From: Mya arenaria
Taxonomy: Eukaryota > Mollusca > Bivalvia > Myida > Myidae
Assembly (NCBI RefSeq): GCF_026914265.1
Contig: NC_069133.1
Location: forward strand, 4,129,566-4,193,565
Length of the DNA: 64,000 nt
Direction: 5' to 3'
Shown in pieces: positions 815-51,391 of this stretch. Position 1 is the first letter of the stretch, and each line of letters opens with the position of its first letter. The notes beneath the pieces were generated by a model that was given only the letters and a program-made list of their open reading frames with translations, ran no database searches and was not told the DNA's origin. Both the position numbers and the translations under genes were made by a program.

Positions 815-3800
815 ATGGAGAACTTTGTTCGCAGGGAAGTCATTCGGTCGCAGTTGGAACACTTGGTACGTTTAAGATAAAATGGTTTGATAAACTATAT
901 TATATCGAAAATATCCGTACATATTCTTTTTTTTAATATTTGTTATTAAGTTAAAGTTATTTGCAGTCTGAATGAGTGTCAATAAAGTGAAGTCGAGCGG
1001 CATTGAAATTCATATGTTCTGAAGATAGAATTTACTATTCTTAGGCCAATATAAATTATTTACTTGATTGTCAACATTCTTTTTATATCGGGAAGGGGAG
1101 GTTGGGGTAACATTTTATTCTTTAATTTTTCTTAGATACCTGTTTGACCTTTGAGCATGTGTCCATGCTCTTTCTATTTTATAAGCGATCATATACAGGT
1201 GTTTCTAGACGAACCACGAACACGATTGTAGCAATTCACCTTATATACATTTGATTGTTATACATCGACTCGGCAGGTATGAATAAACGCCGTTACCGGA
1301 CAGTAACGGACAGATTCGCAAATACAGAAAGTAGTTCAACATTTTTATTTGCGTCAATAAAATGTAAGGGAATGCGCAAAAAGAGGGGGCGGTAGGCGAT
1401 GAAAATGTAGTAATTCATTTAAAGTTGCCTTAAGTTAAGTCAATTTAAATTGGGTCAAAAATGAAGTGACTTTGTATATTCCATAATAACGCTTTGAATG
1501 AACTAATGAAACATTTACAGGCAAAGTAAGCTCATTCGATTGGTTCTTACAAACGTCCAGACGTAATGTGATTAGCTAAAAGGTGAATTTAACTTTTAAG
1601 TTAAAGCTCTTGACTTATGTTGTGTTTATCAATGTGGTTTTAAGCGTATCTTAATGAGGCTTGTCAACTTATGACTTTTATTTCTGCACAGTGAAACTAT
1701 AAATACTTGTTCTCTAAGAGTGTAATATTAACCTGCTTAAGAATGTTATATGTGACAGGCATGACAGCTGAGTAAGGAGGGATGTGTTCTTATATCCTGC
1801 TAAGAAATGGTTTATTTTACAGGCATGACAGCTGAGTAATGAGGGATGTGTTATTATACCCCGCTAAAGAATCGTTTATTTGACATGCATGACAGCTGAG
1901 TAATGAGGGATGTGTTATTATACTCCGCTAAAGAATCGTATTCTTTACAGGCATGACAGCTGAGTAATGGGGGAGGGGTTATTATAACCTGCTAAAGAAT
2001 TGTTTATTTTACAGGCATGACAGCTGTGTAATGAGGGATGTGTTATAATATCCTGCTAAAGAATCGTTTTCTTAACAGGCATGACAGCTAAGTAATGAGG
2101 GATGTGTTATTAACTTATTATATCCTGCTAAAGAATCGTTTTCTATACAGGCATGACAGCTGAGTTGGGAGGGTTGTGTTATTAAACACTGCTTACGTAT
2201 CGTTTGTTATACAGGCGTTACTGCTGAGTAAGGACGGTGAAGAGGGTTTTTACAATCTGCTTACGTATCGTATATTTTAAAGGCATTACTGCTGAGTAAG
2301 AGGGAGGTGTTATTATATCCTGCTAAAGTATCGTATATCTTACAGACATTACTGCTGAGTAAGGGGGAGGGGTGTAATTATATCCGGCTAAAGTATCGTA
2401 TATTTTATAACCATTACTGCTGAGTAGGAGGGGGTGTAATTATATCCTGCTAAAGTATTGTATATTCTACAGGCATTACTGCTGAGTAAGAGGGGGTGTA
2501 ATTATATCCTGCTAAAGTATTGTATATTCTACAGGCATTACTGCTAAGTAAGAGGGGGTGTAATTATATCCTGCTAAAGTATTGTATATTCTACAGGCAT
2601 TACTGCTGAGTAAGAGGGGGTGTAATTATATCCTGCTAAAGTATTGTATATTCTACAAGCATAAATGCTAAGTAAGAGGGGGTGTAATTATATCCTGCTA
2701 AAGTATTGTATATTCTACAGGCATTACTGCTAAGTAAGAGGGGGTGTAATTATATCCTGCTAAAGTATTGTATATTCTACAGGCATTACTGCTAAGTAAG
2801 AGGGGGTGTAATTATATCCTGCTAAAGTATCGTATATTCTACAGGCATTACTGCTAAGTAAGAGGGGGTGTAATTATATCCTGCTAAAGTATCGTATATT
2901 CTACAGGCATTACTGCTAAGTAAGAGGGGGCGTAATTATATCCTGCTAAAGTATCGTATATTCTACAGGCATTACTGCTAAGTAAGAGGGGGTGTAATTA
3001 TATCCTGCTAAAGTATCGTATATTCTACAAGCATTACTGCTAAGTAAGAGGGGGTGTAATTATATCCTGCTAAAGTATCGTATATTCTACAGGCATTACT
3101 GCTAAATAAGAGGGGGTGTAATTATATCCTGCTAAAGTATCGTATATTCTACAGGCATTACTGCTAAGTAAGACGGGGTGTAATTATATCCTGCTAAAGT
3201 ATCGTATATTCTACAGGCATTACTGCTAAGTAAGAGGGGGTGTAATTATATCCTGCTAAAGTATCGTATATTCTACAAGCATTACTGCTAAGTAAGAGGG
3301 GGTGTAATTATATCCTGCTAAAGTATCGTATATTCTACAGGCATTACTGCTAAATAAGAGGGGGTGTAATTATATCCTGCTAAAGTATCGTATATTCTAC
3401 AGGCATTACTGCTGAGTATGAAGGGATGTATTATATCTTGCTATAGTATCGTATATTTTACAGGCATTACTGCTGAGTAAGGAGGGGGAAGAGTGTTTTA
3501 TTATCACTGCTTGTATAGTCGATGGAAGTTTCCAGCTATTTGGCTCGAGCAAGGGTGTTGAATACATACAGAACTACTTTAAAGGCGTGGTGGAGGAGTT
3601 TTTGCCTTATTTAAGTATGTCATACACCTATATGCTTAAATGTATTATCTCTATGGACATAAGTAATAGTCAGCACTTTTTAAGAAAAAATAAATACGTT
3701 CTCTTTAATCTTTAATTTATCTGTTAGTAGCTACAATGTGGCCGTCAGAAGAGCAGTCATTAAGTAACGAGTCATGCAATAAAATATATTTAATAGCGAT

Positions 3801-6800
3801 TTAATTTTGGGCATCACATTAACACGTTATTCGCTGATGAAACCCTTTTTCGATTTTCTCACTTGCATACTTTGTTATAGTTAAATGACATGAATTACAA
3901 TCTTGATGATTAAGAATGGGCGGAGCCAGCGTAGCGAACGAGCTCTTCTTAATTATTAAGATAGTACTTTAGGTTATCTTACTGACTTAGAATACAACCT
4001 CATTGGCTGATACATTGTCGACACATAATCTGACACGGGGAGTGTGTATCGGATGAGTTGCAGTAGACGGAAAGTTAAACACCCGCGGCAGTTGAAATTC
4101 GTAATGATTAAGCCTTGTCTTTTATATTTCATTATCAGCAGTTGTATTGGTTCAAATATAGGTTGTATTCTTATTTACGTTAGTTTTTATCAATGTTTGT
4201 TTACCACGTGATAAATTACGTCATATATGCAACGTCGGAAGGCAACTTTATGCTTAAAATGAAGACTTAAAACCAAGATTTTTTCTACACCATTTTAAAT
4301 GAAACAAAGAGCAGTCAATGTCGTTTAAAAAGCCCCGCCGTCGTTTTATTACCAGCGTTTTATTTGGTGATTAGTTTCTTTAAACACTTCGACAAACCTA
4401 TTTCCAAAATAATGTGCTGACACTGCTCCGTCAGATAGCCGTTTTTTCGAAAAGGTATGTCGAAGAGTTTAAAGAAACTAAACAATCAACCAAACTCTGG
4501 TAAAAGACCAAAGGCGGGACTCTAAAAGCGGCGTAGACTGCGCGTTGTTTCATTTAAAAAGGTGAAGCAATGGTAAAGTGATTTTTGTTTAAAGTCTTCA
4601 TCCAAAGGAAAATATTTCCTGCCGACGTAGCATTTATGATGCAATTTATCACGTGGTATACACACACTGTTTATGGTACATTGAAATGTTTTAGCGACGT
4701 CAATATGTATTGAATGGGCTGACTATATGTAATGAGAGTCCTAACTGACTTTTTTTTAAATAAATTATATAAGGAGAGGAAGTATATAGTATAGTATAGT
4801 ATAACGATGTATCTTGTGAAGAAAAATAAGACGTGTCAGAATGTTTTGATATTATAATGTTACAGGGCATATCTAAATAATCTGTGTAACCTTTTTAATT
4901 CGATCATGAAATAAATGTTAAAACTCTGTCTCATTCTGTCCCTTGACTTAATTAATACATTTATCAGTTATCGCTAAACATCATTAAGAACTATCTTAAT
5001 TCGAAAAACAAGGAAATGTTAAACCTCTATCTGTCTCTTAGCTATATTGATACATTTATCAATTATTGCAAGACAACATAACCATATGCGTATTTCAGTT
5101 TATTTCGCTACATGCCATTCCAGGTCAACAGGACATGCCCGAAAGAGTATACACACGCCAAGTCGTCGATGATTATAATGATGCCAAAAAGGCGATCCGA
5201 TCTATGATTGTATATCAGGTGAGCGTGAACCAATGTGAATCAAATGTTGTTTATATGAAAGAATGGCGACTCGGTTTTCATTCATTTCCAACGGTTTTCA
5301 ATAGCAGAGTCGTTAAATTTAAAGACTGTCACTTATTCGTAACTCACAATTGCATCACACTTTTACAATACCTCCGATATCGAAAAAGATATACATAGAA
5401 AAACATTTGTCGGAAATAAACATCTGAAGCTATATTTTATCACTAGGTTAACACTGAAGCAAAACACTTCATTGAATAGAAAACACTCATTTTTAACTAT
5501 ACGTTTTGTTTTATATACAGGCATGTCGACTAGCTGAGAACGGGGAGGAGTGCTTTGTGGTGACTGCCACAAACCCAAATATTCTAGGCTCCGACAAGGG
5601 GGTAGCCTACTGTGGAATCTTGTTTCAAGGCATTCAGAGAGCCTTTTCCAGACACGTTGGTAAGTGTAACAATGTTGGCATTGATCTGTGTGATTCAGAA
5701 CTCGAAACCCCTTATCGGTAAAACAATGTTTCTATCAGGATAGTTATTGAGAGTTGTTGAAAGAACTATCAATATACAATAACAGACAGCTATCGGCATT
5801 TTCAGCGGCAATTGCGATACAATGACAACAAAATTGGTCGAAAAAATTGTTTTGATAAAATCTCGGACGGGTTCGAATATGGATCATCTCGGATCAATAT
5901 CTAGGTCACTAGGTCAAATAAGAGAACACGTTTTATTTTGGTTAATTTTGAATATTGGTAATCTTTAACAAAAAATGTAGGTAACTAGGTCGAATCTTGG
6001 TTGATTCTGAATACTGTTATTCTTTGATAAAAAAAAGTCGGTTCCTAGAGCAAATCAGTAATTATTGTATGTTTTACTGTCTATTGGTCACAATTTTGTA
6101 CCAGTCTAAACGAAGCGTTTTCAGAATGATTGTTTTAACTTATTCTTATAATATTCAAATCTGGTTAATTCCCTTCAACAAAAACAACAAGGTTACTATG
6201 ATAACTCTTAGAAAAACGTATGTAAACCCAATATGTGGTGCTTGATTATCCGATATTTGCGAAATATTTGAATGAGTATACTATTATAAAATGTAGTAAA
6301 TAGTTATCTTGTTGTATGTGTCCATGTATCCGCTGTGAAAGTCAGGGTAACATTTGTATGTCAGGGCAATGTTGAAAGTTTATATGTGATTTTACCTGGA
6401 CGGTTAGTAATTCATGCTAACAGAAGTGTTTAAGTATCTGATTTAATGTTATTACACATTTTTCTAATTCATCGTTAGCGGCAATGTATTCAGATGAGCG
6501 ATTTAAGGCCACCATGGCTTTCTTGTTTTATATATATTGCAAATGGTATTGTTTAGGGAACCTTATACAATTAATGCTATAATGCGTATTTCCTTTTTTA
6601 CAATACAGAAGCTCACCAAACGGCTGACAGAGATCAGGCCGTTGAACAAGGCCCTGAAACGAGCACAGAAGATGTACATTCTGTACACAGTAAACTGCAA
6701 ACGCATCTGAAGATTGAGAATCCTATCAGACATGAGTCAGAAAACGATCATTGTGGAAACAATTCCAATGACAAGGGAGAGCCTTGTCCCACACCAAGAA

Positions 6801-7537
6801 AAGGTGAAACTTCAGCATTATCAAGAAATGTATCCCCTAGTCAATGGAATGGTAGAGGAAAGCAACCACTAAAAGACAACAATACACCAGCGAAAATGGA
6901 TATCCAATCAATGTTTTCATATTCAGATGATTCAGATCTTCTTGGTAGCGGCACTGATGAGGATTCCACTAATGCAGACAGTCTGCTGTCAGAATCGGAA
7001 CTGCTAGCCGAATCATCGAAATGGGAAACGACAGGGCTAAAGAGGACAAATCAAATGGATGAGGTCAACTCAGATAAGAAGAGATTTAAACCAGGTAATG
7101 GTATTAACTTAAACACTGTTGGTCCAAGTACGTCTGGTTTACAGAGCACAAGTCAGATGAATAAAGAAGACAAACGGTTTGTTTGCGTTGTAAAAGGATG
7201 CGAAAAGGGCCATAAGGACCGCAGCAAGCAATTGGAGCATTACATAAGTCACACGGACATGAAATTATACACGTGTGACTTATGTCAGATCTCATTTAAA
7301 ACTAGAGGGTCTGTTTGTAACCATAGGAAACAGAAGCACCCAGATATTGAATACAGACCTCAGGTAATGTTACGAGAGCGACTCGAAGAGTTGGAAAAAG
7401 AGCTAGAAAGAAACAACGACGTCAGTACTTTATATAACCCTGATGTTAGATCAAACGAAAACATGCCAAAACAAAGAAATAGGTTTTGTGGCGTTTATCT
7501 TCCTGGATTACATGATGATCAGGATTCTGTTCAGTAA
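815..7537 (+). CDS. Copy A: two-module GEECF-domain C2H2 zinc-finger protein, five coding exons
   Basis: Coding exons are 815-865, 3464-3614, 5124-5218, 5521-5659 and 6609-7537. All have AG acceptors and GT donors, with phases 0, 1, 0, 1 that join without a break into about 454 codons. The acceptor at 803 puts a short 5' untranslated stretch before the ATG. Residues 1-68 form a helix-like segment (REVIRSQLEHL) followed by a core with GEECFIITA and LFGSSKG. Residues 69-146 repeat this layout (KKAIRSMIVYQ, then GEECFVVTA and LGSDKG). Exon 5 encodes an acidic, Ser-rich linker, a basic KKRFK patch near residue 302, finger 1 (C338, C343, H356, H360), finger 2 (C368, C371, H384, H389) and a probable coiled coil near 398-415. 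A nuclear DNA-binding role follows from the fingers; the repeated module is not one I recognise. Intron 1 holds a minisatellite made from the exon 2 boundary. Start, splice sites and stop are read from sequence; expression is not shown. Confidence 0.85.
1750..3463 (+). repeat. 62-bp minisatellite in intron 1 of copy A, derived from the intron 1/exon 2 boundary
   Basis: There are about 28 head-to-tail units. Early units are about 64 bp and diverged; from about 2440 to 3400 they are nearly identical 62-mers. A unit reads as pyrimidine-rich TATTCTACAG, then GCATTACTGCT[A/G]A, GTAAGAGGGGG, then an AT-rich filler. The last unit runs directly into true exon 2, whose first bases are GCATTACTGCTGAGTAAG. 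Each unit therefore carries a copy of the 3' splice site and about 20 bases of exon 2, and a donor-like GTAAG 13 bases after the acceptor. The homogeneity of central units points to recent unequal exchange. Confidence 0.92.
3910..3962. repeat. Short dispersed GC-rich repeat in intron 2 of copy A
   Basis: The stretch around AGCGTAGCGAACGAG followed by CTTCTTAAT is repeated at 46182-46235 within copy B. It has foldback character because AAGA...TCTT-type ends flank it. It was carried along in the segmental duplication and looks like part of a dispersed mollusc repeat. Confidence 0.5.
4191..4669. mobile_element. TIR miniature element (hAT-like ends) in intron 2 of copy A
   Basis: Terminal inverted repeats of about 27 bp run from CAATGTTTGT and, on the other end, CAGTGTGTGT, both continuing to ACCACGTGATAAATT. 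The 479-bp element is flanked by TTTAT on both sides (4186-4190 and 4670-4674). The equivalent site in copy B carries a single TTTAT and no element, an empty-site control. It has no coding capacity. CAGTG-type ends suggest the hAT superfamily; the 5-bp target duplication is short for classic hATs. Confidence 0.82.
5820..6530 (+). repeat. Degenerate dispersed repeat in intron 4 of copy A
   Basis: The bases between exons 4 and 5 contain phrases such as TCTAGGTCACTAGGTCAAAT and end near GGCCACCATGG followed by CTTGTTT. This is the same type as the repeat at 55085-55552, which ends GGCCATCATGGCCCTCTTG. It looks like an old copy of a common bivalve repeat. No open frame in it has support. Confidence 0.5.
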
Positions 7538-17074: not shown

Positions 17075-17455
17075 AAAATTTATGTGATATTCATTTCCAT
17101 TGTGAAACTTATCCCTTGGGAACAATATTAACATCTTTTAGTATACATGCCTGGATGAGTTTTAAAAAATGACCATATTATGCATACTAACTGCATAAAA
17201 ATATACAATGACATACATTTCATATCAAATTTTGTGTATCTGTATTTCCCTTTCAACTACTTCGAAATAACAAACGTCCCAACCCTAAAATGTTCAAACA
17301 TATTCTACATACATTATTTTTTATCTTACACTGTATATATATGTTCTATATGTATTTATCACGCCTAATAAAATTGAAGCCTGTCAACTCGTACGTTGTT
17401 GTGAAACATATGAACCCCACCTTTCAACTTCCCTGTGTGTTCCTATCCATTCGAA

Positions 17456-18755
17456 CGTCACTGTAGAGAGGCCGTAGGTGATACCCGGCAGTTGATGAAT
17501 TAGAAAGAGAGTCGTTAGATTAATTTAGTACTGCTGAGCGTCACGGTAGAGAGGCCGTGGGTGATACCCGGCAGTTGATGATTTAGAAAGAGAGACGTTA
17601 GATTAATGTAGTATAGCCGAGCGTCACTGTAGAGAGGCCGTGGATGATACCCGGCAGTTGATGAATTAGAAAGAGAGACGTTAAATTAATGTAGTATAGC
17701 CGAGCGTCACTGTAGAGAGGCCGTAGGTGATATCCGGCAGATTATGATTTAGAAAGAGAGACGTTATATTGATGTAGTATAGCCGAGCGTCACTGTAGAG
17801 AGGCCGTAGGTGTTACCTGGCAGTTGATGATTTAGAAAGAGAGACGTTATTTTAATGTAGTATAGCCGAGCGTCACTGTAGAGAGGCCGTAGGTGATACC
17901 CGGCAGTTTATGATTTAGAAAGAGAGACGTTATATTAATGTAGCATAGCCGAGCGTCACTGTTGAGAGGCCGTAGGTGATACCCGGCAGTTTATGATTTA
18001 GAAAGAGAGACGTTATATTAATGTAGTACTGCTGAGCGTCACGGTAGAGAGGTCGTAGGTGATACCCGGCAGTTTATGATTAATAAAGAGAGACGTTATA
18101 TTAATGTAGTATAGCCGAGCGTCACTGTTCAGAGGCCGTAGGTGATACCCGGCAGTTGATGATTTAGAAAGAGAGACGTTATATTAATGTAGTACTGCTG
18201 AGCGTCATGGTAGAGAGGCCGTAGGTGATACCCGGCAGTTTATGATTTAGAAAGAGAGACGTTATATTAATGTAGTATAGCCGAGCGTCACTGTAGAGAG
18301 GCCGTAGGTGATACCCGGCAGTTGATGATTTATTAAGAGAGTCGTTAGATTAATTTAGTACCGCTGAGCGTCACGGTAGATAGGCCGTGGGTGATACCCG
18401 GCAGTTGATGATTTAGAAAGAGAGACGTTAAATTAATGTAGTACTGCTGAGCGTCATGGTAGAGAGGCCGTAGGTGATACCCGGCAGTTTATGATTTAGA
18501 AAGAGAGACGTTATATTAATGTAGTATAGCCGAGCGTCACTGTAGAGAGGCCGTAGGTGATACCCGGCAGTTGATGATTTATTAAGAGAGTCGTTAGATT
18601 AATTTAGTACTGCTGAGCGTCACGGTAGATAGGCCGTGGGTGATACCCGGCAGTTGATGATTTAGAAAGAGAGACGTTAAATTAATGTAGTACTGCTGAA
18701 CGTCACTAGAGAGAGGACGTAGGTGATACACAGCAGTTGATGATTTAGAAAAGAT
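17456..18755 (+). repeat. 83-bp satellite array, about 16 units
   Basis: Units read CGTCACTGTAGAGAGGCCGT, then a GTGATACCCGGCAG segment, GATTTAGAAAGAGAGACGTT, and ATGTAGTATAGCCGAG. Two variants alternate in blocks: one with TATAGCCGAG and one with TACTGCTGAG. A higher-order pattern is visible, for example the 18180-18440 and 18430-18690 stretches repeat as a set. A short array of the same satellite occurs at 28516-28770. Confidence 0.93.
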
Positions 18756-18941
18756 AGTGAACTATTACAAGTACCCACTCCTTGTCCTCAATGCTAATGA
18801 TTTGGGAGACCGCAAAATTTCCTTTAAATGATGGACAAAGAGCGAATACAGAAACTATAATAATAATAATAATAAAACACTTGTCACTTATCATCTGGTT
18901 TACTTAAATAACTCGTAATAGAGTCGTATTATTACACTTAG

Positions 18942-19018
18942 GCGTCGATCAACAGAATGACTACTTCCAGGTTTCGTACGCCTTATCTATTTCGGCCAAT
19001 GAGGGTCACTTGTGATAG
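18942..19018 (+). repeat. Satellite-associated 77-bp repeat, copy 1
   Basis: GGCGTCGATCAACAGAATGA through GTCACTTGTGATAG is repeated at 28410-28488 next to the second satellite array. It behaves as the flank or edge unit of the satellite. Confidence 0.75.
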
Positions 19019-28400: not shown

Positions 28401-28409
28401 TTATGCCAA

Positions 28410-28770
28410 GGCGTCGATCAAAAGAATGACTACTTCCAGGCTTCGTGCGCCTTATCTATCTCGGCCAATGAGGGGTCACTTGTGATAGACGTGAGATTAA
28501 TGTTGTACTGCTGAGCGTCACGGTAGAGAGGCCGTGGGTGATACCCGGCAGTTGATGATTTAGAAAGAGAGACGTTAGATTAATGTAGTACAGCTGAGCG
28601 TCACTGTATAGAGGCCGTGGATTATACCCGGCAGTTGATGATTTAGAAAGAGGGACTTTAGATTAATATAATACTGCTGGGCGTCGCTGTGGAGAGGCCG
28701 TAGGTGATACCCGGCAGTTGATGATATAGAAAGAGGGATATCTTAATCGAGTTTATCAGTTCGTCACTAT
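28410..28770 (+). repeat. Satellite edge repeat plus short 83-bp array
   Basis: The 77-bp edge unit (28410-28488) is followed by about three diverged 83-bp units (CGTCACGGTAGAGAGGCCGT and onward). It is in the same orientation as the array at 17456-18755. Together the two arrays bracket about 9.4 kb that contains a decayed retroelement. Confidence 0.85.
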
Positions 28771-34442: not shown

Positions 34443-37400
34443 TTAACTCCCTTTCGAGATCTTCAAGCTGTTGTCGGCTCGGATATTGCGGTCGCAGTTT
34501 CTCAATGTATGGGTGGGCTGTTCTACAATGCTTGATTGCGGTGGTGCTGCTTTTAAATTTTCATCGCACTCTCTGCATGTGATTCGTTTCGTCTCGGTAT
34601 GACTTTGATAATGTTTTAATAACCGCCAACGGGCGATAAATTCTCTCAAACAACTTTTCACAACGCATGTAAATGATTGGATTTCTACAGAGTTTGAATT
34701 AGCTCCCTGTTTACACTCATCAGATGTCCCTGCAATAACACTTGAGTTTGTCGCCCTCTCGTTTTTTCTTGCGCTAACGTATGACCGTACACCACATTCT
34801 TCATTGTGTTTCTTTATGGCTGGCTCTTGACACGCTTCCGTTATCTTTTGTAGAGCTGACCCGCATTTTGACAGGGACTTCACTGACCGCTTGGCGTCTT
34901 GATCTAGTTTTATCGGAGTCCTTCCGATAAAGGCACTCATGTCGGGTAACTTATTTTCCAACTCTTTTTTAAACTTGTCATCTGAATTAGACCAACTGTC
35001 ATTATCATCATCATTAGAGGCGGGGGTTACAGGTACGACAGGCTCATCGGCATTTGCCTTTCTTGGAGTCCCCTCGGGTGGTAAAGCTTTTCCAAGAAGG
35101 AGCGAAGGCGATTCCTTAATTTGGTCTTCTATATTGGTCCTTTTAGTGTTCACTTTCACATTATCCGAAACCTTTTTAATTTTCACTTGTACTACGGATT
35201 GACTTGATCTGTTTCCGTCAGTTGGTCTGGAATGTTGAGCAAACGAGACGTTAGGTCTGCTTATTTCTACGTGTTTTTTTCCCGACAGTACTAGCATCAA
35301 GGTTGGTTTCATCTGTTAACAGAACATATAACTGTCAATACATATTTCATAATTCAGAATATACCGGCATATGCAAAAATGTCGTTTTACTTTTTTCATA
35401 TTGAGTTATGGCCAATGAAAACATTTCACACAAAGGGGCTCCTAATACTCCTTTTCAATAGTGTAAATGCCAATCGGAACTCCTAGGCCATTTTCTATCG
35501 AAAACAACCTCGTTTACAATGGCCGAAATCTGTATACATATACTACGCTGCAAACAGATCGCGTAGTAATTTCAATTGAGCAATAAAAATTAATGACTTA
35601 ACTCTAGGGAATCTTAATAATGTTTGCAATCTTCACTGGCAATCAAATAAAACTCAGAAATACAAATACACGCTAAAACGATACATTTAATTAATAATAT
35701 AACTCAAAATTAACAATCTACTTCAACTAATGTACATCCGAGGTTGTTTTCGATAGAAAATGGCCGAGGAGTTCCGAATGTGTAAACACTAGATACAGTC
35801 AGAGAACCAGAGGCGATTATAATGAGGCCTAAATATAAATAATTGTTCATTTCAAATGTCTAAATCTACCCTATATTTTAGCACCGATCCTAAGATTAGT
35901 TTGACCAAAATACAACAAGGACTGTACAGTGGCTTCGGAAACAAATCTTGGGCCGTACTCATAAATAATCATTAACCTTATATGTGCATTATATAGGTGG
36001 AGGTGTGTTTTTCTTTGTATTTTTTTTGAAACCAACAGACAGTTTTTTAAGTATGTGATGTTAAACCAATAATAACTAGTCATAAATAGCTTCAGTAGAA
36101 TTTAAACAATGTAGTGATACATTTATAGGGTCAATTTGATATAGTTTTGTGAAAAAGCATTCCGGATGTCAGATATTCACCTTTGTACACCCCACTTCAA
36201 AGTTACAAAGTCACAATGTTTCATAAATCAATCACCTTCAGTATAAATATAAGGAATACATGCCCAGGTTCTGACGGTCATCGAATGAAAACGATCAATA
36301 AACATGCATAAAGTGGTCATACGCAATTATTCATAATCATACTGGATAAATGTTTCAGCCCAAATCCAATGATACCTTCAACCTGCATTCATATCGTTTT
36401 GTTAATAAAAAATCCTAACAATGCGTGAAATTTAATGTAAACATATACCTGAACTTTAATTCATACGATGGAAACTTCAATAGAATGTCACATTTATGGC
36501 TCTGAAGCGGAACTAAATGTCTTACTTTAAAACACTTCAAAGCCCGATAATTACAAATGTGGCGAGAGAATGCTTTCTGACAAAACTTGAAATCCTCGCA
36601 GAAGTAAGCTTTCCCTTTGTCGGAGCCCAGAACGTTTGGGTTCTTTGCACTCACGATGAAACACTCCTCCACGTCGGCATGTAATCTAACCGCCTGTAAA
36701 TATAATGTTAACAAAATCATTTCTAAAGGTATTTGTGCGATTTAAATTAACTTTGCTTGTAATTATCACACAATACATTTCCATATCTCAAAGTGGAAGA
36801 ATGTCGTGGGTGGCAATAATTTCCGGTACGGACGGACACCTGGGTCGAATAAACGATATTCCGTAACAATCTGTCGAACACGTCGTTCACCAGGCCAACG
36901 ACAAAAGATTATGAGACATCCGTAGGAAAGAGAAGGGTATCAAGGAAACTCGTGTGTTTTGTGATATAACAATTGTAGAGTTTCGAACATATTTAAACAA
37001 AAAGAAGGCCCATGTGGGCCTGTAGTCTACTGGCACTTTGTCATAACAATCAGTAAACCATGTTTCAACGGGAGACAAACACTACAATAATGCACACCTC
37101 TCTGTACAACGTTGCCTCCCTAAATTTCCTTTGCATTCTTACTAAGTGCAATTATCAAGTCATACAAAGGCGGATCTGGCTGCTTTTCGAGAGGAACTGT
37201 ACCAATAATAAACGGACGGGCACACGGACAAACAGACAGACTGGCAGTATGAAATATATAAACAACACTTATGAGGCATACCAACTACCACAAGTAGATC
37301 TAACCCAAAGCGGAAACTCCTGTTTTATGATTATCGACCATAGCCGCTAAACCACTGAAGGGCGTTAGACGTAGGATATCCAATATCAAAAATGTGTTAA

Positions 37401-39251
37401 ACATATCCAGTGTTGGTTGAGTGCGTTTTAATAATATCTTCTGTTGGTTGAATGTGTTAATTATACCCAGTGTTGATTGAGTGTGTTAATCATACCCAGT
37501 GTTGATTGAGTGTGTTAATCATATCCAGTGTTGGTTGAGGGTGTTAGTCATATCCAGTGTTGGTTGAGTGTGTTAATCATACCCAGTGTTGATTGAGTGT
37601 GTGAATCATATCCAGTGTTGGTTGAGTGTGTTAATCATATCCAGTGTTGGTTGAGGGTGTTAGTCATATCAAGTGTTGGTTGAGGGTGTTAGTCATATCC
37701 AGTGTTGGTCGAGTGTGTTAATCATACCCAGTGTTGGTTGAGGGTGTTAATCATATCCAGTGTTGGTTGAGTGTGTTAATCATACCCAGTGTTTGTTTAG
37801 TGTGTTAATCATATCCAGTGTTGGTCGAGTGTGTTAATCATACCCAGTGTTGGTTGAGTGTGTTAATCATACCCAGTGTTGGTTGATTGTGTTAATTGGT
37901 TGCGTGTGTTAATCATATCCAATGTTGGTTGAGTGTGTTAATCATACCCAGTGTTGGTTTAGTGTGTTAATCATATCCAGTGTTGGTTGAGTGTATTAAT
38001 CATATCCAGTGTTGGTCGAGTGTGTTAATCATATCCAGTGTTAGTTGAGTGTGTTAATCATATCCAGTGTTGGTTTATGTGTTCTTTCTTTAACAGGGTG
38101 CATCTTTACTCACTAAATGTGACATAAGAGACCTGACCACTTTTCTTTCACTGTGTGGATCGTCAATAACGTCTGGCCCTCTGACGACTTCTGATAAAGC
38201 CTGGTTTTCTGAAACATATTAAAGCAAAAATTAAATGATCTAAATGAAAGCAGGTTAAATCTACACTTGTGGAATGAACACCTTGATAAAACTCCCTTAG
38301 GCCAAGTGATGTACAATCAATATACTTGTCATCCACCAGTACTATGTTCACTACAATTAATTCAAACATATTTATTTAACATCGACAGTAAAGCTCTGCC
38401 AACGTTAGATTAATCATGCTCGATAGTTGCCAGCGGGGTTCTAAACAGTAGCAACCGCAGCTACTGTATTGATTGTGCAGGTCGTACTAAAGTTTTGTCT
38501 CTCCGGGATAGGAGTCTGGGGCCATGATTACGAACGATCTCGAGTCCAAGTCTAGACTCAGACTCAGATAAGCATTTTTATTAAGGAATAAAATATCATA
38601 TGTATTCTATTTCTTTTACAAAGTTTATGTTAATAATAGTAAAACATTCAAAAAGTAAAATATTTCAGCAAAGTATGCCCTCAATGCTCTGATAGAAGGA
38701 AAATTACAATGAAATAAAGTTGTGCCATAATGAGTCTTGAGTCTGAACTCAGACTTGAGACTGTTCGTAATCACTGCCCCTGGTGTTCTTTTCCTATACA
38801 ACGAGACCTCCCAATTGTATCCAATTATAACTGTTGATATAAATTATTTTACAGATTGCTCTGCATAATCAAAAATATAAAACTTTCGTCAAATGAATGT
38901 AAAAATAGACACTGTTTTTACGTACTTAAGTATTGCAGAAATTCCGTTTTGACAATAAGGGATTTTCTCTCTACAAAGTCAGTTCCCTTGATCGAGCCGA
39001 GCAGATGCAGTGTTTCGTCAGTAACATAGGCAGTAACAATAAAACACTCATCCCCAGCTTTGCTCAACAAAGTTGACTGTAAATAAAATACACCATTCTT
39101 AAAGAAATAAATATTTTTCACAGTTTGAAATCTACATTGATAATCATATACACAAAAAGATGATTAGAAAACAAAATACTATAATGTGAATTATACTCAC
39201 CTTCAACTCTGATCTAACAACTTACCTCTCAAGAGCCAGCTCATCGCCCAT
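34443..39251 (-). CDS. Copy C: diverged paralogue of the two-module C2H2 gene, minus strand
   Basis: Exons (minus strand) are 39251-39201, 39076-38926, 38208-38114, 36693-36526 and 35312-34443. Exons 1, 2 and 3 are 51, 151 and 95 nt, as in copy A. The modules are recognisable: LLSKAGDECFIVTA with LLGSIKG, then DVIDDPHSERKVVRSLMSHL, then VEECFIVSAKNPNVLGSDKG. Exon 4 may use the donor AAA|GTAAGA at 36525, which is in frame with exon 5; the position equivalent to copy A (after 36555) has a weak donor and a phase that does not fit. Exon 5 (289 codons) has a long polar linker, one good C2H2 finger (C-x4-C-x12-H-x3-H, starting FTCVVKSC) and a second with only its cysteine pair. Exon 1 carries an in-frame TAA, so either exon 1 is not used as drawn or the gene is inactive. 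Family membership is firm; activity is not. Confidence 0.7.
35475..35776. mobile_element. TIR element (GGCCATTTTCTATCGAAAAC family)
   Basis: Left end CGGAACTCCTAGGCCATTTT and TCTATCGAAAACAACCTCG is the inverse of the right end CGAGGTTGTTTTCGATAGA and AAATGGCCGAGGAGTTCCG. It is 302 bp with no coding. A related, more decayed copy lies at 40108-40405. Confidence 0.85.
36060..36520. other. Intron 4 of copy C, no other feature
   Basis: This is part of the spacer between exons 5 and 4 of the minus-strand gene. No repeat or additional exon could be supported. Confidence 0.35.
37395..38092. repeat. 29-bp minisatellite in intron 3 of copy C
   Basis: About 24 units of GTGTTAATCATATCCAGTG followed by TTGGTTGAGT, with CATACCCAGTG and TTGGTCGAGT variants. 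It ends about 20 bp from the donor of exon 3 on the minus strand, so almost the whole proximal intron is repeat. Confidence 0.95.
38516..38782. mobile_element. TIR miniature element
   Basis: GGGGCCATGATTACGAACGA and CTCGAGTCCAAGTCTAGACT at the left are inverse to CAGACTTGAGACTGTTCGTA and ATCACTGCCCC at the right. The arms are about 50 bp and rich in GAGTCT/AGACTC. It lies in intron 2 of copy C. Confidence 0.82.
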
Positions 39252-40107
39252 GTTTGTTTTGTCTGTAAATACACAATATAAAACATCTAACGAAGCAACA
39301 ATAACATACAGTAACATTGTTAATTATTGCAAACAACATACATATCCATAGGGTTAGGTAAAAAAGACGATTTCCCTCCCAACAAACAAAATTATAATTT
39401 TATTGCGTCATAGACAATTATTGATTGTAACATATGAAGATTTCCGCCCCCTGCCCCCATCCACCCCACTCACACATACATACTTTGGTATGCCGGAATA
39501 TGGGCCATATCGGGCAGTTGTACAGACCAAGGTTATAATGTACGCTGAGTTGCACTAATATATCAAACTGGGTTCGAACTCCAATAGAAAACAACCAAGC
39601 GCCATAAAATACGCCATCAATTACAGTAATAATCTGAATTCAATTACAGATAAATGTCCTTTAGGTCAACTGTTTTGAATAATACATGCACGAAATGTCG
39701 CAGTACCTATTTTTTTAAAAGTTAATCTTATTTGTAACGCTGTCATAAAATTAAACTGAACTGCTTTTCTCCCACTCCAGATAAGTAGATCAAAATAGTG
39801 GACCAAGCTGAGAATCCTTATCCTGCCCAACAACCTTTTTTTAATATGTAACTAAACCCCAAGAGGTAACAAATAAGTTTTAGCGACTTAAATAGTAGAA
39901 AGACCAACTAATATAATGTTTAGCTACTCTGGTTCCTTTATATCTCATTTAAGTTTTTGTTCCAGTGTGAAATAGTGTTTCCAGTTTGCTTTTAAAGTGT
40001 ATTCAATGATTATTATTAGACCATGTAAGAAGTTTCAAAAATAGGTGCCTGATAGATTATTGATTATTTTTCTCGTGTTTTTGTGTGCTTTTTCGCATGC
40101 CTTTCGC

Positions 40108-43790: not shown

Positions 43791-46700
43791 ATGAAGAACT
43801 TCGTTCGCAGGGTCATTCGGGCGCAGTTGGAACACTTGGTAAGTTTAAGAAAAAAAATGGTTTGATAAACTATATTATATCGAAAATATCCGTCCATATG
43901 TTTCATATTTTTTTAATATTTGCTTTCAAGTTAAAGTTGTTTTGAGTCTAAATGAGTGTCAATAAAGCGAAGTTAAGTGGCATTGGAATTCATATGTTCT
44001 GAAGATAGAATTTACTATTCTAAGGCCAATATTTACTTGATTTTCAACATTGTTTTGTAAATCGGGACGGGGAGGTTGGGGTAACATTTTATTCTTTATT
44101 TTTCTTAGATGATTGTTTGACCGTTGAACATATGTTCATGCTCTTTCTATTTTATAAGGGACCATTTCAAGTAATTTTAGACGACCCATAAAGACGATTG
44201 TAACAATTCTCCTTTTTTACATTTGAAGGTTATACATCGACACCGCAGGTATGAATAAACGCTGTTCCAGGACAGTACCGGACATATTCGCAAATACGGA
44301 ACATAGTTCAACATTTTGTTTCAGTGAAACTATAAATTATTGTACTCCGAGAGTGTAAAATATCCTGCTAAAGATTGCTATGTTTTACAGGCATGACAGC
44401 TAAGTAAGGAGGGCGTACAATTTTATTCTGCGAAACCACGGGTTATTATACAGGCATGACAGCTGAGAAAGTAGGGGATGTGTTATTAAATTCTGCGAAA
44501 GAATTGTTTATTTCACAGGTATGACAGCTTAGTATGGAGGGGATGTGTTATTACAACCCGCTAAAGAATCGTTTATTTTACAGGCATGGCAGCTGAGAAA
44601 GGAGGGATGTGCAATTATACACTGCTGAAGTATCGTATATGTTATAGGCATCACTTCTGAGTCAGGAGGGACGTGCAAATTTATCCTGCTTAAGTATCGT
44701 TTATTTTACATGCGTTACTGCTGAATAACGACGATGAAGAGGGTTATTATAAACTGCTAAAGTATATTTAACAGGCATATCTCCAAAGAAAGGAGGGGTG
44801 TGTAAGTGTATACTGCTGAAGTATCAAATATTTTACAGGCATAACTGCTGAGTAAGAAGGAATATGTAATTATATACTGCTAAATTATCGTCTATTTTAC
44901 AGGCATCACTGCTGAGTAAAGACGGGGGTGTTATTTGATCCTGCTTAAGTATCGTATATTTTACAGGCATCACTGCTGAGTAAGAGGGCTTGTGTAATTA
45001 TATTAATCTGTATTATCATATATGTTACAAGCATCATTACTGAAAGAGCCGGAATATGTAATTAAATAATGCTGAAGTATCGTCTATTTCACAGAGTGTG
45101 TCACTATATCCTGCTTAAATATCGTATATTTTACAGGAATCACTGCTGAGTAAGAAGGGTTGTGTAATCATAAACTGCTGTGTTATCATATATGTACAAG
45201 CATCATTACTGAGTGAGCAAGAATATGTAATTATACACTGCTGAAGTATCGTCTATTTTACAGGGAGTGTTATTATATCCTGCTAAAGTATCGTATATTT
45301 TACAGGCATTACTGCTGGGTAAGAGGGGGTGTAATAACATCCTGCTAAAGTATCGTATATTTGACTGGCATAACTGCTGAATAAGAGGGAGGTGTAAATA
45401 TATCCTGCTAAAGTATCGTATATTTTACCGGCATTACTGCTGAGTAAGAGGGAGGTGTAAATATATCCTGCTAAAGTATCGTATATTTGACTGGCATAAC
45501 TGCTGAGTAAGAGGGAGGTGTAAATATATCCTGCTTAAGTATCGTATATTTGACTGGCATAACTGCTGAGCAAGAGGGGGTGTAAATATATCCTGCTAAA
45601 GTATCGTATATTTTACAGGCATTATTGCTGAGTAAGAGCGGTGTTATTATATCCTGCTAAAATATCGTATATTTTACAGACATTACTGCTGACTAAGAGG
45701 GAGGTGTAATTATATCCTACAATAGTATCGTATATTTTACAGACGTCACTGCTGAGTATGGAGGGGGAAGAGTGTTTTATTATCACTGCTTGTATAGTCG
45801 ATGGAAGTTCCCATTTATTTGGCTCAACCAAGGGAGTTGAATACATACAGAACTACTTTAAAGGCGTGGTGGAGGAGATTTTACCCTATTTAAGTATGTC
45901 ATACACCTACGCTTAAATGTATTATCTCTGTGTACATAAGTAATAACCAGCAATTTTTAAGAAATAATAAATACATTCACTAAACTTATCTGTCAATAGA
46001 TACAACGTGGCAGTCAAAAGAACAGTCATGCAATTAAACTAAGTAACGAGTGTGATGGCGCAAGCGATTTTATGTTTGGCATCATATTAATACGTTATGC
46101 ACTGATGAAACCCTTTTTCGATTTTCTCACTTGCATCATTTGTTATAGTTAGTTGACATGAAGTAAAATCTTGATTATTAAGAATGAGCGGAGCGAGCGT
46201 AGCGAACGAGATCTTCTTAATCATTAAGATAAGGTATTACTTCAGGTCATCTAACTGAAAACAATCTCATTGTCCTGTGTGTATCGGATAAGTTGCAGTA
46301 GTCGGAATGTTAAACACCCGCGGCAGTTGAAATTCGTAATGACTAAGCCTAGTCCTTTATATTTTACTATCCGCAATTTTAACATATAGGTTGTATTCTT
46401 ATTCATGTTAGTGTTTATGGCGCATTGATTTTTTTTTCATTTCAGTGACGCCAATATGTATTGAATGGGTTGACTATATGCAATGAGAGTCCTAACTGAC
46501 TTTTAAAAAAATATAAGAAGAGGAAATATAACTAACTCTTTTTTGAAGGAATATAAGACCTGTCAAAATGTCTTTATATAATAATGTTACATGACATATC
46601 TAAATAATCTGTGTAAGAATGTCTGAACAATTATTTTAATTCGATCATGAAGAAAATGTTAAAACTCGGTCTCATTCTGTCTCATGACTAAATTAATACA

Positions 46701-46869
46701 TTTATCAGTTATTATCAGACATCATTCGCATATGTTTATTTCAAGTTATTCCATTCCATGCCATGCCATTCCAGGACAACAGGATATGCCCGAAAACGAT
46801 TATACACCAACGGCCGTGAATGATATTAATAATGACAGACAGGCGATCCGGTCTGTTATCTCATATCTG
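43791..46869 (+). pseudogene. Copy B: truncated duplicate of the two-module C2H2 gene (exons 1-3 only)
   Basis: Exons are 43791-43838 (one codon shorter than copy A), 45743-45893 (151 nt) and 46775-46869 (95 nt), with the same splice phases and good AG/GT sites. The encoded N-terminus keeps GEECFIITA, LFGSTKG and QAIRSVISYL, and no stop occurs in these exons. Exons 4 and 5, which in copy A hold the second core and both zinc fingers, are not found downstream. Homology to copy A ends about 135 bases into intron 3, where Gypsy-derived sequence starts. Either the gene is dead or it makes a short protein with one complete module. The open frames and intact splice sites mean loss of the 3' half may be fairly recent. 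Confidence 0.72.
44370..45742 (+). repeat. 62-bp minisatellite in intron 1 of copy B, derived from the intron 1/exon 2 boundary
   Basis: There are about 22 units with the same layout as in copy A: TATTTTACAG, GGCATTACTGCTGAGTAAGA, then G-rich and AT-rich filler. Units are more diverged and some are shortened or disrupted (around 45030-45110 and 45190-45270). The last unit flows into exon 2 (ACAG|ACGTCACTGCTGAG). A CATAACTGCTGAGTAAGAGG subtype has spread locally at 45360-45590. Confidence 0.9.
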
Positions 46870-47553: not shown

Positions 47554-50500
47554 GATGAGATAAATGCACAAAATAGAATGAAGTACTCAAATTAAAGAGT
47601 GCTAAACCAGAGTGCCAACTCAATGTATGAACTTAAATCTCCAATACTTATTTACTCATGATTAAGTGACCTCTGAACTCTTCCATCGCCCGACTTTACG
47701 TACGATCTCGGGATTTATATTCTGAGCTATCGCGGTAGTAGCTCCCGTTGGACGAAACGACATTGCCGTGTAACCCTGTCCCTCTAGACCTGCCAGTTTT
47801 ATAGCTTCATCCAAAATCTTGGCAACAGACGATGCTTGAATTGCATTATACGGCGCGTGAAGCGATAAGAATACCGGACCACCTGGCGGCCGGAACCTGT
47901 CTGTCCGTTCAATGTAGTCCTGTAATGTCTGAACAGGATCAAGCTTAACGTTGCTCGCCCTTGGCAACTCGACCTCAAACCCTGACCGCGATGTATCATT
48001 TTTGATTCCGAAAAATGTTATTTTGGCAGACGTTTCACGGAATTCAACCTGACTAATTTTGAAACATAACTTTATCTCGTCGTCGGCTTGTGAATACAAT
48101 ATGCCATTAGGTGCAACGTCTGATGGTCTTAGCATTAACGTCAATGCTAATAACGTAATGGCTTTAAGCCTCAGATACTTAAAATCCAAATGTTTGTTGT
48201 CCGACCAACTTAAAAATAAGTTGTGAAAACGCTCTATAGGCATGACCTTTGATCTCTTCATTGGTTCACTGGTCCCCGATTTGACTAGTCCGCTAACGAG
48301 AAGTCTTACGTCTGAATCTTCGACAAGATTGACACGCCCCTTGGCTCGATATAAGTGACCTATAGCGGCAATGTTTGTTCTAATGACCGAATTAGGTCGA
48401 GACGACGCGTTAGCCATGTTGCAGAAAAAATCGGCCAGATAACATGTGTCATTTGGCGGGAAATCACACTTTGTTTCAGTACAAAACTTGAACAATTTCT
48501 CGAGCGCGTTATCATATGATCGCAAAGTGCCCTTAGCAAGGCTATATCTCAACTTGCTAATACTATACTGTGACCAGTTTTTTGCTACAAGTTCTTCCCG
48601 CCATACACTCTCCAGGCGACTATTTGCCACTTCCGGTTCCGGCACGGTTCCGGAAGTGCCCCCATTGATCGAAAAACTCTTGGGTTGTTCGGTAACTTTA
48701 GAGGTGGGGAAATTGACATACGAGCCAACCGTTGATACCATGTTTGTGTCTTCCACTGCGGAGCTATTATGGTCGCATACGCTTTTTGCGTTTGTACTAT
48801 GTCTAACATTTGTGGTATAAGACAAAACTGGGCGTTTACAAGTTGTTTTCGCACCCCCAGTTGCCCTGCGATAGGGCGTCCACTGCTTCTGACAACGGAT
48901 CCCAGTACCGACTGTTGAACCTCGATAACTGAGCGCTCTGACAATTTGCAAACCGATCTATTGTGTGACGACCGTACAATTTGTCTATGTAACCGAACAC
49001 GGCAGGATGCAACATCCAATTGTGCTTGTCTGGCGTTCTCGACCAATAATCGGCTTGACCATTCTGTACTCCTGCGATATGAGCACAACGTAACGTGATT
49101 CCATGATCGAACGCTTCCGCCCAAATTGCTAATGCCAGCCTTGACAGTTTTTGGCTCGGGCCCCCCATATGGTTTATATAAGTCATTGCAGAAATATTGT
49201 CGGTTAGTACTTGCACTACTAACCCGCGTAACAGCTTCGCGAAGGCTTTGATGGCCATCAATATGGCCAACATTTCTCTTTCGTTCGAGGTGAGATACGA
49301 GACGCGGCGGTTCCAGTCGCCCGATGCAACATGGCTGCCGTACGTTGCTCCCCAGCCTAGACCACTGGCATCGGTGAACACCTGAGTCTGTATTGTCTCG
49401 GAACATATCTCGCGTGAGTTCCAGTAATCTACTGAATTTAACCACCACTGTAGTTCTTCTGCAACTTCCGGTGTTATAATTAAGCTATCCGACCACGATT
49501 TACGCGCACAAAGTAATTTATACGAATTTCTCAGAAAAAGTTTGCCAGGTGTGACGGCCCAGGCAACTGACACACACTGCCCCAATACTTTCGCTAACTG
49601 ACGGGCAGCTGCCAGCCCTTGACTAAGAACTCTCCGAATAGACCTCTTAAGCCTGGCCACGCGAATCAACTGCACTTTTACGATTATTTTGCTGTCGGCA
49701 GTACATATTGTATATCCAATATATGCAATACGCTGTGTTGGCACTAGGTTTGATTTCTCAAAATTCACTTCAAACCCTAACTCGTCTAATGTATGCAGTA
49801 ACTGATCTTTGTGATCTGTTATATTTGACACAGATGCACAAAGTAGAAAATCGTCAACAAAAACTGTAATTCTCAACCCTACAGACCGTAAATACGTTAT
49901 AACATGCCTCAAAATCTTATTGAAAAAATATGGTGAACAGCATAAACCAAATACTAACACATTCCACACATAATAAACTCCATCCCATTTAAATCCTAAG
50001 AATTTTCTGTGTGATACATGAACAGGTATATGTAAATATCCGTCTTTGATATCAGTCGTAATAAACCTGTCTTCGGGTTCTATTAACTTCACAGCATCTC
50101 GAATGTCTTCATTTCTGTACTTTGGAACATTACAATTATCATTAAGCTTCCTTAAATCCGTGATAAGACGTAACTTATTGTTCTTTTTAGGCACAACCCC
50201 TAAAGGGCTCACACAAACTGGTGTTTCTTCCCTAGGTTCTATGTATCCGAGTAATAACAACCTATGTTATTCCTGATTAACAAACTGACACTGTTTTGCA
50301 CTAAGATCGTGATTCTTTAACTCGAAAGGCTGTACTTGTGACGCAAAGGGAATAGTAATACCATTAGTAATCCAATCAATTATGTGATTGGGAGCATCAA
50401 TCTGTTTCCATGCAGATATATTTCGTTGGAGATTAGAAATACACATTGAAACAAAATTTTAATTAAGTGAAATCTGAATGAAAACAACGCTTAATGTAAG

Positions 50501-51391
50501 CACACAATGCGTAACTAATCGTCCTTATCGTATGTGTTTGGTGCACCCTCGTCCTTCTGGTGGCTGTTGCGGTATCTCGACGACGGGAACTGGCGCGACG
50601 CGAAGCTATTGAAAACGTCTCCCCGACGACCTCCGCGTTGACCTCCACGATAACCGCCACGTCCCGACTCGTACGATGATGTTGACGCACCACGTGCTAG
50701 GGCTGTCGTACGGCTGGCCGCCGATAAGGTGGCTGCAGACCTTAAAGTATCGAGCGAGTCTGCGTTTAACCCGGATGTGTTCTTTTGTAACGCACGAAAT
50801 ATCCTTGATGTTGATTGGTCAAACTGTCCATTTACAAGAATAGCCGCATACTCGTCCTGAACATATTTACACTGGGCATGACAAATAAGAAACAACTGGT
50901 CCAATGTTTCTTGGGTTACACTAGATCCTGGTTCAATTGTCGATAGGAGTTTTGCCGTGGTTTCACTGTAACGGCTACACTTTGAAAGAATGTTCAATAC
51001 AGGAACATCCGAACGCTTGATTCCTTGACGGGATTCGTTGAGTCGTAGCTCTGTCGGCAGCTTAATCCGTGCCAAACTGTCCTTCAGTGCGGAAAAATCC
51101 CCCTGGATATCAGAATTAGACCCGGTGGCAGTTAGATCTGCGGTACCGGGAGCCAACACGTGGCTTCTTTCTGGGTGGTCGTTTACCGAGAAGCACCCTT
51201 CACGTGGTGAATTTACAAATCCGGAGGAAATATCAAGTTTCTGAATCACTGTCTGTAGATTTCGTTCTACGCCGATAATCCTTTCGTTCACAGAGTCTTT
51301 AAACTCCTAAAACTGTTCCTCCATCTGAATAATTGTCTATGAAATAAACTTATTTTCCTGACTGAACAAATACACGTCCTCTCTCGAGAGT

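Follow-up and report, generated by a model that had tools for sequence, protein, structure and literature searches.

Minisatellites with units lying across an intron/exon boundary are known from amphioxus as mirages, and the available text of the reports describes them in the Adh3, globin (BflGb6/BflGb9), TnC and PGBD5 genes (PMC3087553, PMC3902484). As described there, AG/GT is present in many, not all, of the units, the interior of a cluster evolves in concert with the cluster edges excluded, and the units of Adh3 measure 10–72 bp (PMC3087553, PMC3902484). In BflGb6, the 3′ end of the intron and the 5′ part of exon 2 are duplicated in tandem, with units of 150–160 bp that number 6 and 3 on two haplotypes; for arrays of this type, RT-PCR is described as pointing to regular splicing (PMC3087553).

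The window analysed here (the whole stretch of 64,000 nucleotides of DNA from the clam Mya arenaria, with positions counted from its first letter) contains an array in intron 1 of a gene designated copy A. As read from its units, which lie across an intron/exon boundary, the array is a mirage-type minisatellite. Arrays of this sort are already known, from amphioxus, and the main novelty of the original prediction is therefore lost. The likeness extends to the tandem arrangement, to units that straddle an intron/exon boundary in the gene that carries them and to AG/GT signals that are present in many units but missing from others; the layout, with the 3′ end of the intron followed by the 5′ part of exon 2, is that of BflGb6. 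The clam arrays differ in that their host is a mollusc and not a cephalochordate, in that they have 22–27 units as compared to 6 and 3 in BflGb6, in that they are common to four paralogs beside five array-free sisters and in that the homogenised tract of one paralog (copy D) takes in the working acceptor.

Human CBS 844ins68 is a single duplication of an intron–exon junction with two tandem 3′ splice sites; it resembles the clam array in being a junction duplication but has one extra copy and is a human polymorphism. The 31-bp VNTR of CBS, given in the available text as c.1444_1467+7, crosses an exon/intron boundary by its coordinates (PMC2630376); it spans a boundary like the clam array, but the donor side is repeated, and it too is a human polymorphism. 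Intron gain by tandem genomic duplication (the Rogers model), for which the accessible part of one report gives a potato RdRp case (PMC4974935), has in common with the clam the duplicated segments with splice-like sites. It differs in that the clam has no new intron, the array-free paralogs having the intron end at the same place. Among the literature listed, as titles and abstract openings and with subscription journals mostly outside its scope, no mirage-type array outside amphioxus appears. Amphioxus is probably not alone in having boundary-spanning minisatellites. New here are an origin that can be traced to a candidate short direct repeat (GAGTGT) and the occurrence of one array family in some members of a gene family and not in others within the same genome.

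Gene model of copy A

Copy A is located on the forward strand and has five coding exons. Exon 1 (815..865, MENFVRREVIRSQLEHL) ends in phase 0 at the donor GTACGT, and exon 2 (3464..3614, beginning ALLLSKEGEECFIITA) ends at the donor GTATGT. They are followed by exon 3 (5124..5218), exon 4 (5521..5659), which is homologous to exon 2, and exon 5 (6609..7537), which has C2H2-like zinc fingers at its end (two by eye). The exon lengths of 51/151/95/139/929 nt and the phases 0/1/0/1 give a single frame of 454 aa. The peptide of exon 1 is the same in copy D and nearly the same in copy B, and the exon layout is found again in the paralogs; as predicted from the DNA, the five-exon model is coherent. 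The zinc fingers of exon 5 are below the Pfam cut-off and match PDB zinc-finger chains with a best E of 5.2e-9. Exons 2 and 4 show no Pfam domain at E ≤ 1, and the window shows no known RNA at the Rfam gathering scores. By eye, exons 1 and 2 resemble exons 3 and 4 in the manner of an internal duplication (815–5659), with a phase-0 intron equally placed in both halves.

The array in intron 1

In copy A, TRF finds a repeat of period 62 with 21.9 copies at 2117–3488, and wrap-around alignment resolves 27 full units of 61–72 bp, mostly 62, at 1759..3463 in intron 1 on the forward strand (array A), which is where the array had been predicted to lie. In each unit of about 62 bp, some 40 nt from the end of intron 1 are joined to about the first 27 nt of exon 2. 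The array finishes at the real exon 2, so that the last junction, with the exon from 3464, is the authentic one. The 5′-most AG acceptor-like site in the wrap-around alignment (1757..1758, forward strand) is perhaps the ancestral intron end of copy A.

According to the original prediction, about 28 units would each hold the motif TATTCTACAG|GCATTACTGCT, followed 13 bases on by GTAAG. The array stands, but not the word "each": the exact 21-mer TATTCTACAG|GCATTACTGCT is present 13 times in 27 units, and the terminal AG is present in 22/27. GT does lie at positions 14–15 in 25/27 units, although the full GTAAG is limited to 17/27; a 13-nt microexon can thus be read in most units of array A, as had been proposed. 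The units are near-identical from 2473 on; those at the 5′ end are diverged, and the last unit is diverged again. All 13 copies of the 21-mer are within array A. There is none in array B and none elsewhere in the 1.2-Gb genome (13 forward, 0 reverse and 0 in the reversed control; 1,216,080,610 bases on 18 contigs searched), and the real intron 1/exon 2 junction reads TATTTTACAG.

A G-run is present in 27/27 units of array A and a branch-like TGCTnA motif in 22/27. When the units of the arrays in copies A, B, D and E are pooled, 80/100 end in AG and 83/100 have GT at positions 14–15; AG/GT signals are therefore carried by many but not all units of the four arrays. The first 10 nt of exon 2 of copy A recur exactly at 16 further places in the gene slice and the first 18 nt in three array units, with homology up to about +27..+33.

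Distribution in the gene family

A search of the genome with exon 2 gave 20 matches, of which nine, all located on contig C12, are clear copies with an E of at most 3.8e-7. Exon 4 of A, D and E accounts for three of the remaining matches; the other eight are on C6, C7 and C10. Copies A, B and C are inside the window; the others are elsewhere on C12, at 3401339 (D), 3221853 (E), 4120046 (F), 3232813 (G), 3391251 (H) and 3424429 (I). An array crosses the exon 2 junction in A (27 units counted), B (22), D (27) and E (24), and a plain acceptor is present in C, F, G, H and I. The array-free copies have the acceptor at the same site as the array-bearing copies and a short intron 1. A DNA search with two units returned at least 48 matches, all on C12 and confined to loci A, B, D and E, and a tandem array over the match was found in 0/8 of the weaker exon 2 matches on C6, C7 and C10. 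These weak relatives start shortly 3′ of an acceptor-like CAG, which suggests that the exon 2 stretch may belong to a wider clam family.

Copy B lies on the forward strand with exon 1 at 43791..43838, array B at 44391..45742 (22 units, terminal AG in 13/22), exon 2 at 45743..45893 (starting ACGTCACTGC) and an exon 3 match at 46774..46866. A genome search with exon 4 found eight clear copies, none of them near copy B, and reverse transcriptase and integrase-like frames follow downstream of exon 3; on both grounds copy B looks truncated. Copy C serves as an outgroup. Its exon 2 is on the reverse strand (38924..39076, the end being approximate), with a plain acceptor and an array-free intron 1. 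Its exon 1 (about 39200–39260, reverse strand) seems by eye to have a TAA where copy A has GAA, and the match to exon 5 is spread over two overlapping frames; copy C may therefore be a pseudogene. Exon 2 of copy E differs from that of A, B and D chiefly by amino acid changes (dN 0.23, dS 0.08–0.28), and exon 4 of copy E is nearly unchanged as compared to A and D (dN 0.03, dS 0.06–0.12); this is a hint that exon 2 of copy E evolves fast or under relaxation.

Origin of the repeat unit

Alignment of exon 2 with the units across the acceptor, the comparison that could have overturned the original prediction, confirmed instead that the units are copies of the intron 1 acceptor and the exon 2 start, since homology is present on both sides of the acceptor. 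Exon 2 +1..+33 matches 27/27 units in A (median z 10.7), 20/22 in B, 26/27 in D and 24/24 in E (p < 0.05 against shuffles). For +34..+75, the numbers fall to 2/27, 6/22, 3/27 and 13/24 at the same threshold, and +76..+117 matches no unit in A, B, D or E. On the intron side, the 42 nt 5′ of the first acceptor match 27/27 units in A, 17/22 in B, 17/27 in D and 24/24 in E, and the next 42 nt upstream match 0/27, 0/22, 1/27 and 1/24. The figure for the intron flank of E is no true flank test, since more degenerate units lie upstream of the site used as first acceptor in that copy. The homology thus covers both sides of the acceptor and fades near the breakpoints predicted below.

In copy A, the hexamer GAGTGT is found in intron 1 at 1718..1723, 40 nt 5′ of the first acceptor, and again in exon 2 at 3491..3496 (+28), both on the forward strand; we take these as the candidate 5′ and 3′ breakpoints. 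Their spacing (–40, +28) predicts a founder of 41 + 27 = 68 bp. Unit A10 (2215..2282, forward strand) has this length of 68 bp and looks founder-like: it reads LLSKDGEEGF where exon 2 reads LLSKEGEECF, and it is the unit of array A most like exon 2 (DNA score 55 as compared to 14.8 ± 2.4 in shuffles), the short protein match by itself having a tblastn E of 0.5. In the intron flank, the motif is also present at –39 in B, and in exon 2 it is present at +28 in A, B and D. Against these breakpoints, the intron flank of D has GAGTGA and exon 2 of E has GACTGT. The 3′ breakpoint is not sharp, since exon 2 +34..+75 is still weakly similar to some units.

Exon 2 is a conserved coding sequence that is also present in the array-free copies, which sets the direction from exon to array. 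The intron end of the C-type copies was considered as an ancestor of the first acceptor. It compares weakly with the first acceptor tail of A, B and D (4/15 comparisons with p < 0.05, as against 2/15 for the real acceptor), and this candidate was rejected.

Our data suggest, with a good degree of probability, a mirage-type minisatellite that arose by duplication of a 68-bp junction segment. In the ancestor of A, B, D and E, the segment from the intron GAGTGT to the exon 2 GAGTGT would have been duplicated in tandem, by microhomology-mediated slippage or unequal exchange. The surplus copies would have stayed in the intron, as only the last acceptor was joined to the full exon 2 and its donor. 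The array would then have grown and been homogenised by unequal exchange, mostly on the exon side in A, B and D, and small deletions would have cut the unit to 61–64 bp. The splice-site-like motifs of the units would be hitch-hikers in this process. Normal splicing would most likely join exon 1 to the last acceptor, and transcripts that strayed into a decoy would be expected to carry a premature stop.

Decoy splice sites

The array could instead act as a brake on splicing, with the decoys diverting some transcripts into stop-containing products and the array length setting the output of the gene; we regard this as unlikely. When a decoy preceded by AG is read through to exon 2, a stop is met before the end of exon 2 in all cases (A 22/22, B 13/13, D 22/22, E 23/23), and these 80/80 decoys from the four paralogs would fit a brake. 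Use of the 13-nt microexon also leads to a stop (A 20/20, B 9/9, D 19/19, E 21/21; 69/69 in total), the microexons all shifting into one frame and so counting as effectively one event per gene. Shuffled 62-nt units, however, give an early stop in 2000/2000. The stops are thus expected by chance and are no sign of design, and we rejected a "poison" design as evidence of function.

The splice signals of the decoys show no clear excess of constraint in A, B, D or E, whether ranked by columns or by pairs of neighbouring columns. The number of neighbouring pairs that are better kept than the terminal AG is 40/61 in A, 46/61 in B, 29/60 in D and 10/62 in E; for GT, it is 14, 46, 13 and 20, respectively. 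AG is above the median pair in E alone, where it is better kept than 42/62 pairs, and GT exceeds the median moderately in three copies (A, D and E) and falls short of it in B. A brake would be favoured by the GT of A, D and E and the AG of E, and is opposed by the AG of A, B and D; mild selection on these better-kept pairs could be read from the alignments. AG is retained in 67/78 units of A, D and E taken together as compared to 13/22 in the truncated B (Fisher p 0.013), B being more decayed overall. The purine-rich GAAGA is present in 1, 1, 1 and 0 units of A, B, D and E and, by eye, in all four real exons. A loss of this motif from the units was considered and rejected, the C-type exons being without it by eye as well.

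Splice-site scoring, with frequency tables taken from general knowledge and not built on clam introns, places many decoys at or above the real sites. The acceptor score equals or exceeds that of the real acceptor in 19/27 units of A, 9/22 of B and 15/27 of D, which would favour a brake, and in 1/24 of E, where the low number argues against one. The donor score reaches that of the real exon 2 donor in 17/27, 9/22, 15/27 and 9/24 units, respectively. With so many decoys of this strength, low-level mis-splicing of the arrays is plausible; regulation is unproven. In favour of a brake, the arrays persist in four paralogs with 22–27 counted units, and an intronic VNTR of human ABCA7 is reported, in the available text, to affect splicing (PMC5954066). 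On the other side, the amphioxus mirages seem, from what is available of the reports, to be regularly spliced (PMC3087553, PMC3902484).

Tandem duplication at a splice junction most likely left the array behind as a passive by-product; a regulatory role, possible but unsupported, has a small probability. The idea of the original prediction that the array works as a device, be it a splicing timer, a bank of poison exons or a length-dependent control, found no support, as shuffled units always stop and neither AG nor GT stands out. The array is nevertheless well suited as a natural test of the way in which cells select the right splice site.

Array turnover and the working acceptor

In a tree of the units (≥55 nt, two short B units left out, no support values), A and D pair at their third, fourth and sixth units, counted from the 5′ end, and the 3′ units mostly cluster by gene, an exception being the last A unit, which groups with two D units; the rows for the exon edge are built so as to have 40 nt in common with the last unit. 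From this pairing of 5′ units and grouping of 3′ units, and from the differences given next, the array is older than the split of A and D and is renewed on the exon side in A, B and D, with E behaving differently.

The differences are counted against the array majority. In array A, units 1–8 have 13–18 differences, units 12–26 have 0–3 and the last unit has 8. The first fourteen units of array D have 12–21 and the rest 0–5, and in array B the numbers fall from 6–27 to 3–7. Array E has its most uniform units at the 5′ end, opposite to A, B and D: the first thirteen have 3–6 differences, and the later units form a second, more distant block (6–17). For the exclusion of cluster edges described for amphioxus, the picture is mixed. 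The last unit is clearly diverged in A (8, neighbours 0–1) and E (17, neighbours 6–11), hardly in B (7, neighbours 3–6) and not in D (0).

The last unit of copy D is identical to the array majority, and the 61 nt before its exon 2, the real acceptor included, are present seven times. The acceptor of D is TTTCACAG, as in its decoys, whereas A, B and E have TTTTACAG. Since the real acceptor of D is letter for letter one of its decoys, the turnover of the array extends to the splice site in use. Copy D provides a natural experiment, in which the spliceosome meets the real acceptor and six upstream copies that do not differ over 61 nt and must choose between them by exon sequence, position or downstream donor and not by the acceptor.

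Exon 2 starts with GCATTACTGC in A, as in the array, with ACGTC in B and with GCGTC in D and E; codons 1–2 of copy A read like the array and unlike B, D and E. Between A and B, exon 2 has 4 differences in the first 18 nt as compared to 9 in the other 133 (Fisher p 0.051; p 0.07 and 0.29 when the cut is placed at 20 and 30 nt). An exchange from the array into functional sequence in exon 2 of copy A is only suggestive. One could extend these observations to a model in which the acceptor and first codons evolve in concert with the decoys (in D and A) and the four genes tune productive splicing through array length; we find this model rather improbable.

The unit numbers of all four arrays come from one genome, and near-identical units are hard to assemble. 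That the numbers are partly an assembly artefact is quite improbable, as four separate loci have gene-specific variants and the old units of A and D are collinear.

We also considered a stepwise, recursive-type removal of the long intron, in which the units would be mini-introns of about 49 nt separated by 13-nt microexons and the intron would be spliced piecemeal. The GT at +14, G-run, TGCTnA and terminal AG of most A units are what such a scheme would use. A ratchet site in recursive splicing is an abutting AG|GT; in the clam units, AG and GT are 13 nt apart. Every array also has units without AG or GT, and the array-free sister genes have a short intron 1, which together make the scheme highly improbable. 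An origin elsewhere, from a transposable element or a dispersed minisatellite with the match to exon 2 arising by chance, is suggested by the many tandem repeats of the window, but it can practically be dismissed, since the matches to the two-unit query (at least 48) are confined to the four paralogs on C12 and the homology spans both sides of the junction.

Other repeats and elements in the window

The C-type copies have a 29-bp minisatellite shortly 3′ of exon 3. It has about 24 copies in copy C (37393–38083), about 106 in F, at least about 125 in H (to the end of the slice) and 32 in I; copy G has a 22-bp array after exon 3 in its place. An 83-bp minisatellite is present with 15.7 copies at 17452–18751 and 3 copies at 28488–28738. 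Similar flanks are located at 18940–19018 and 28409–28488, for which reason it may be the internal array of a dispersed repeat. The regions 47662–51306 (reverse strand) and 51500–54314 (forward strand), 3′ of exon 3 of copy B, hold frames that resemble reverse transcriptase and tyrosine recombinase, which we take to be DIRS/Ngaro-like, followed by pieces that are presumably Gypsy-like (by eye).
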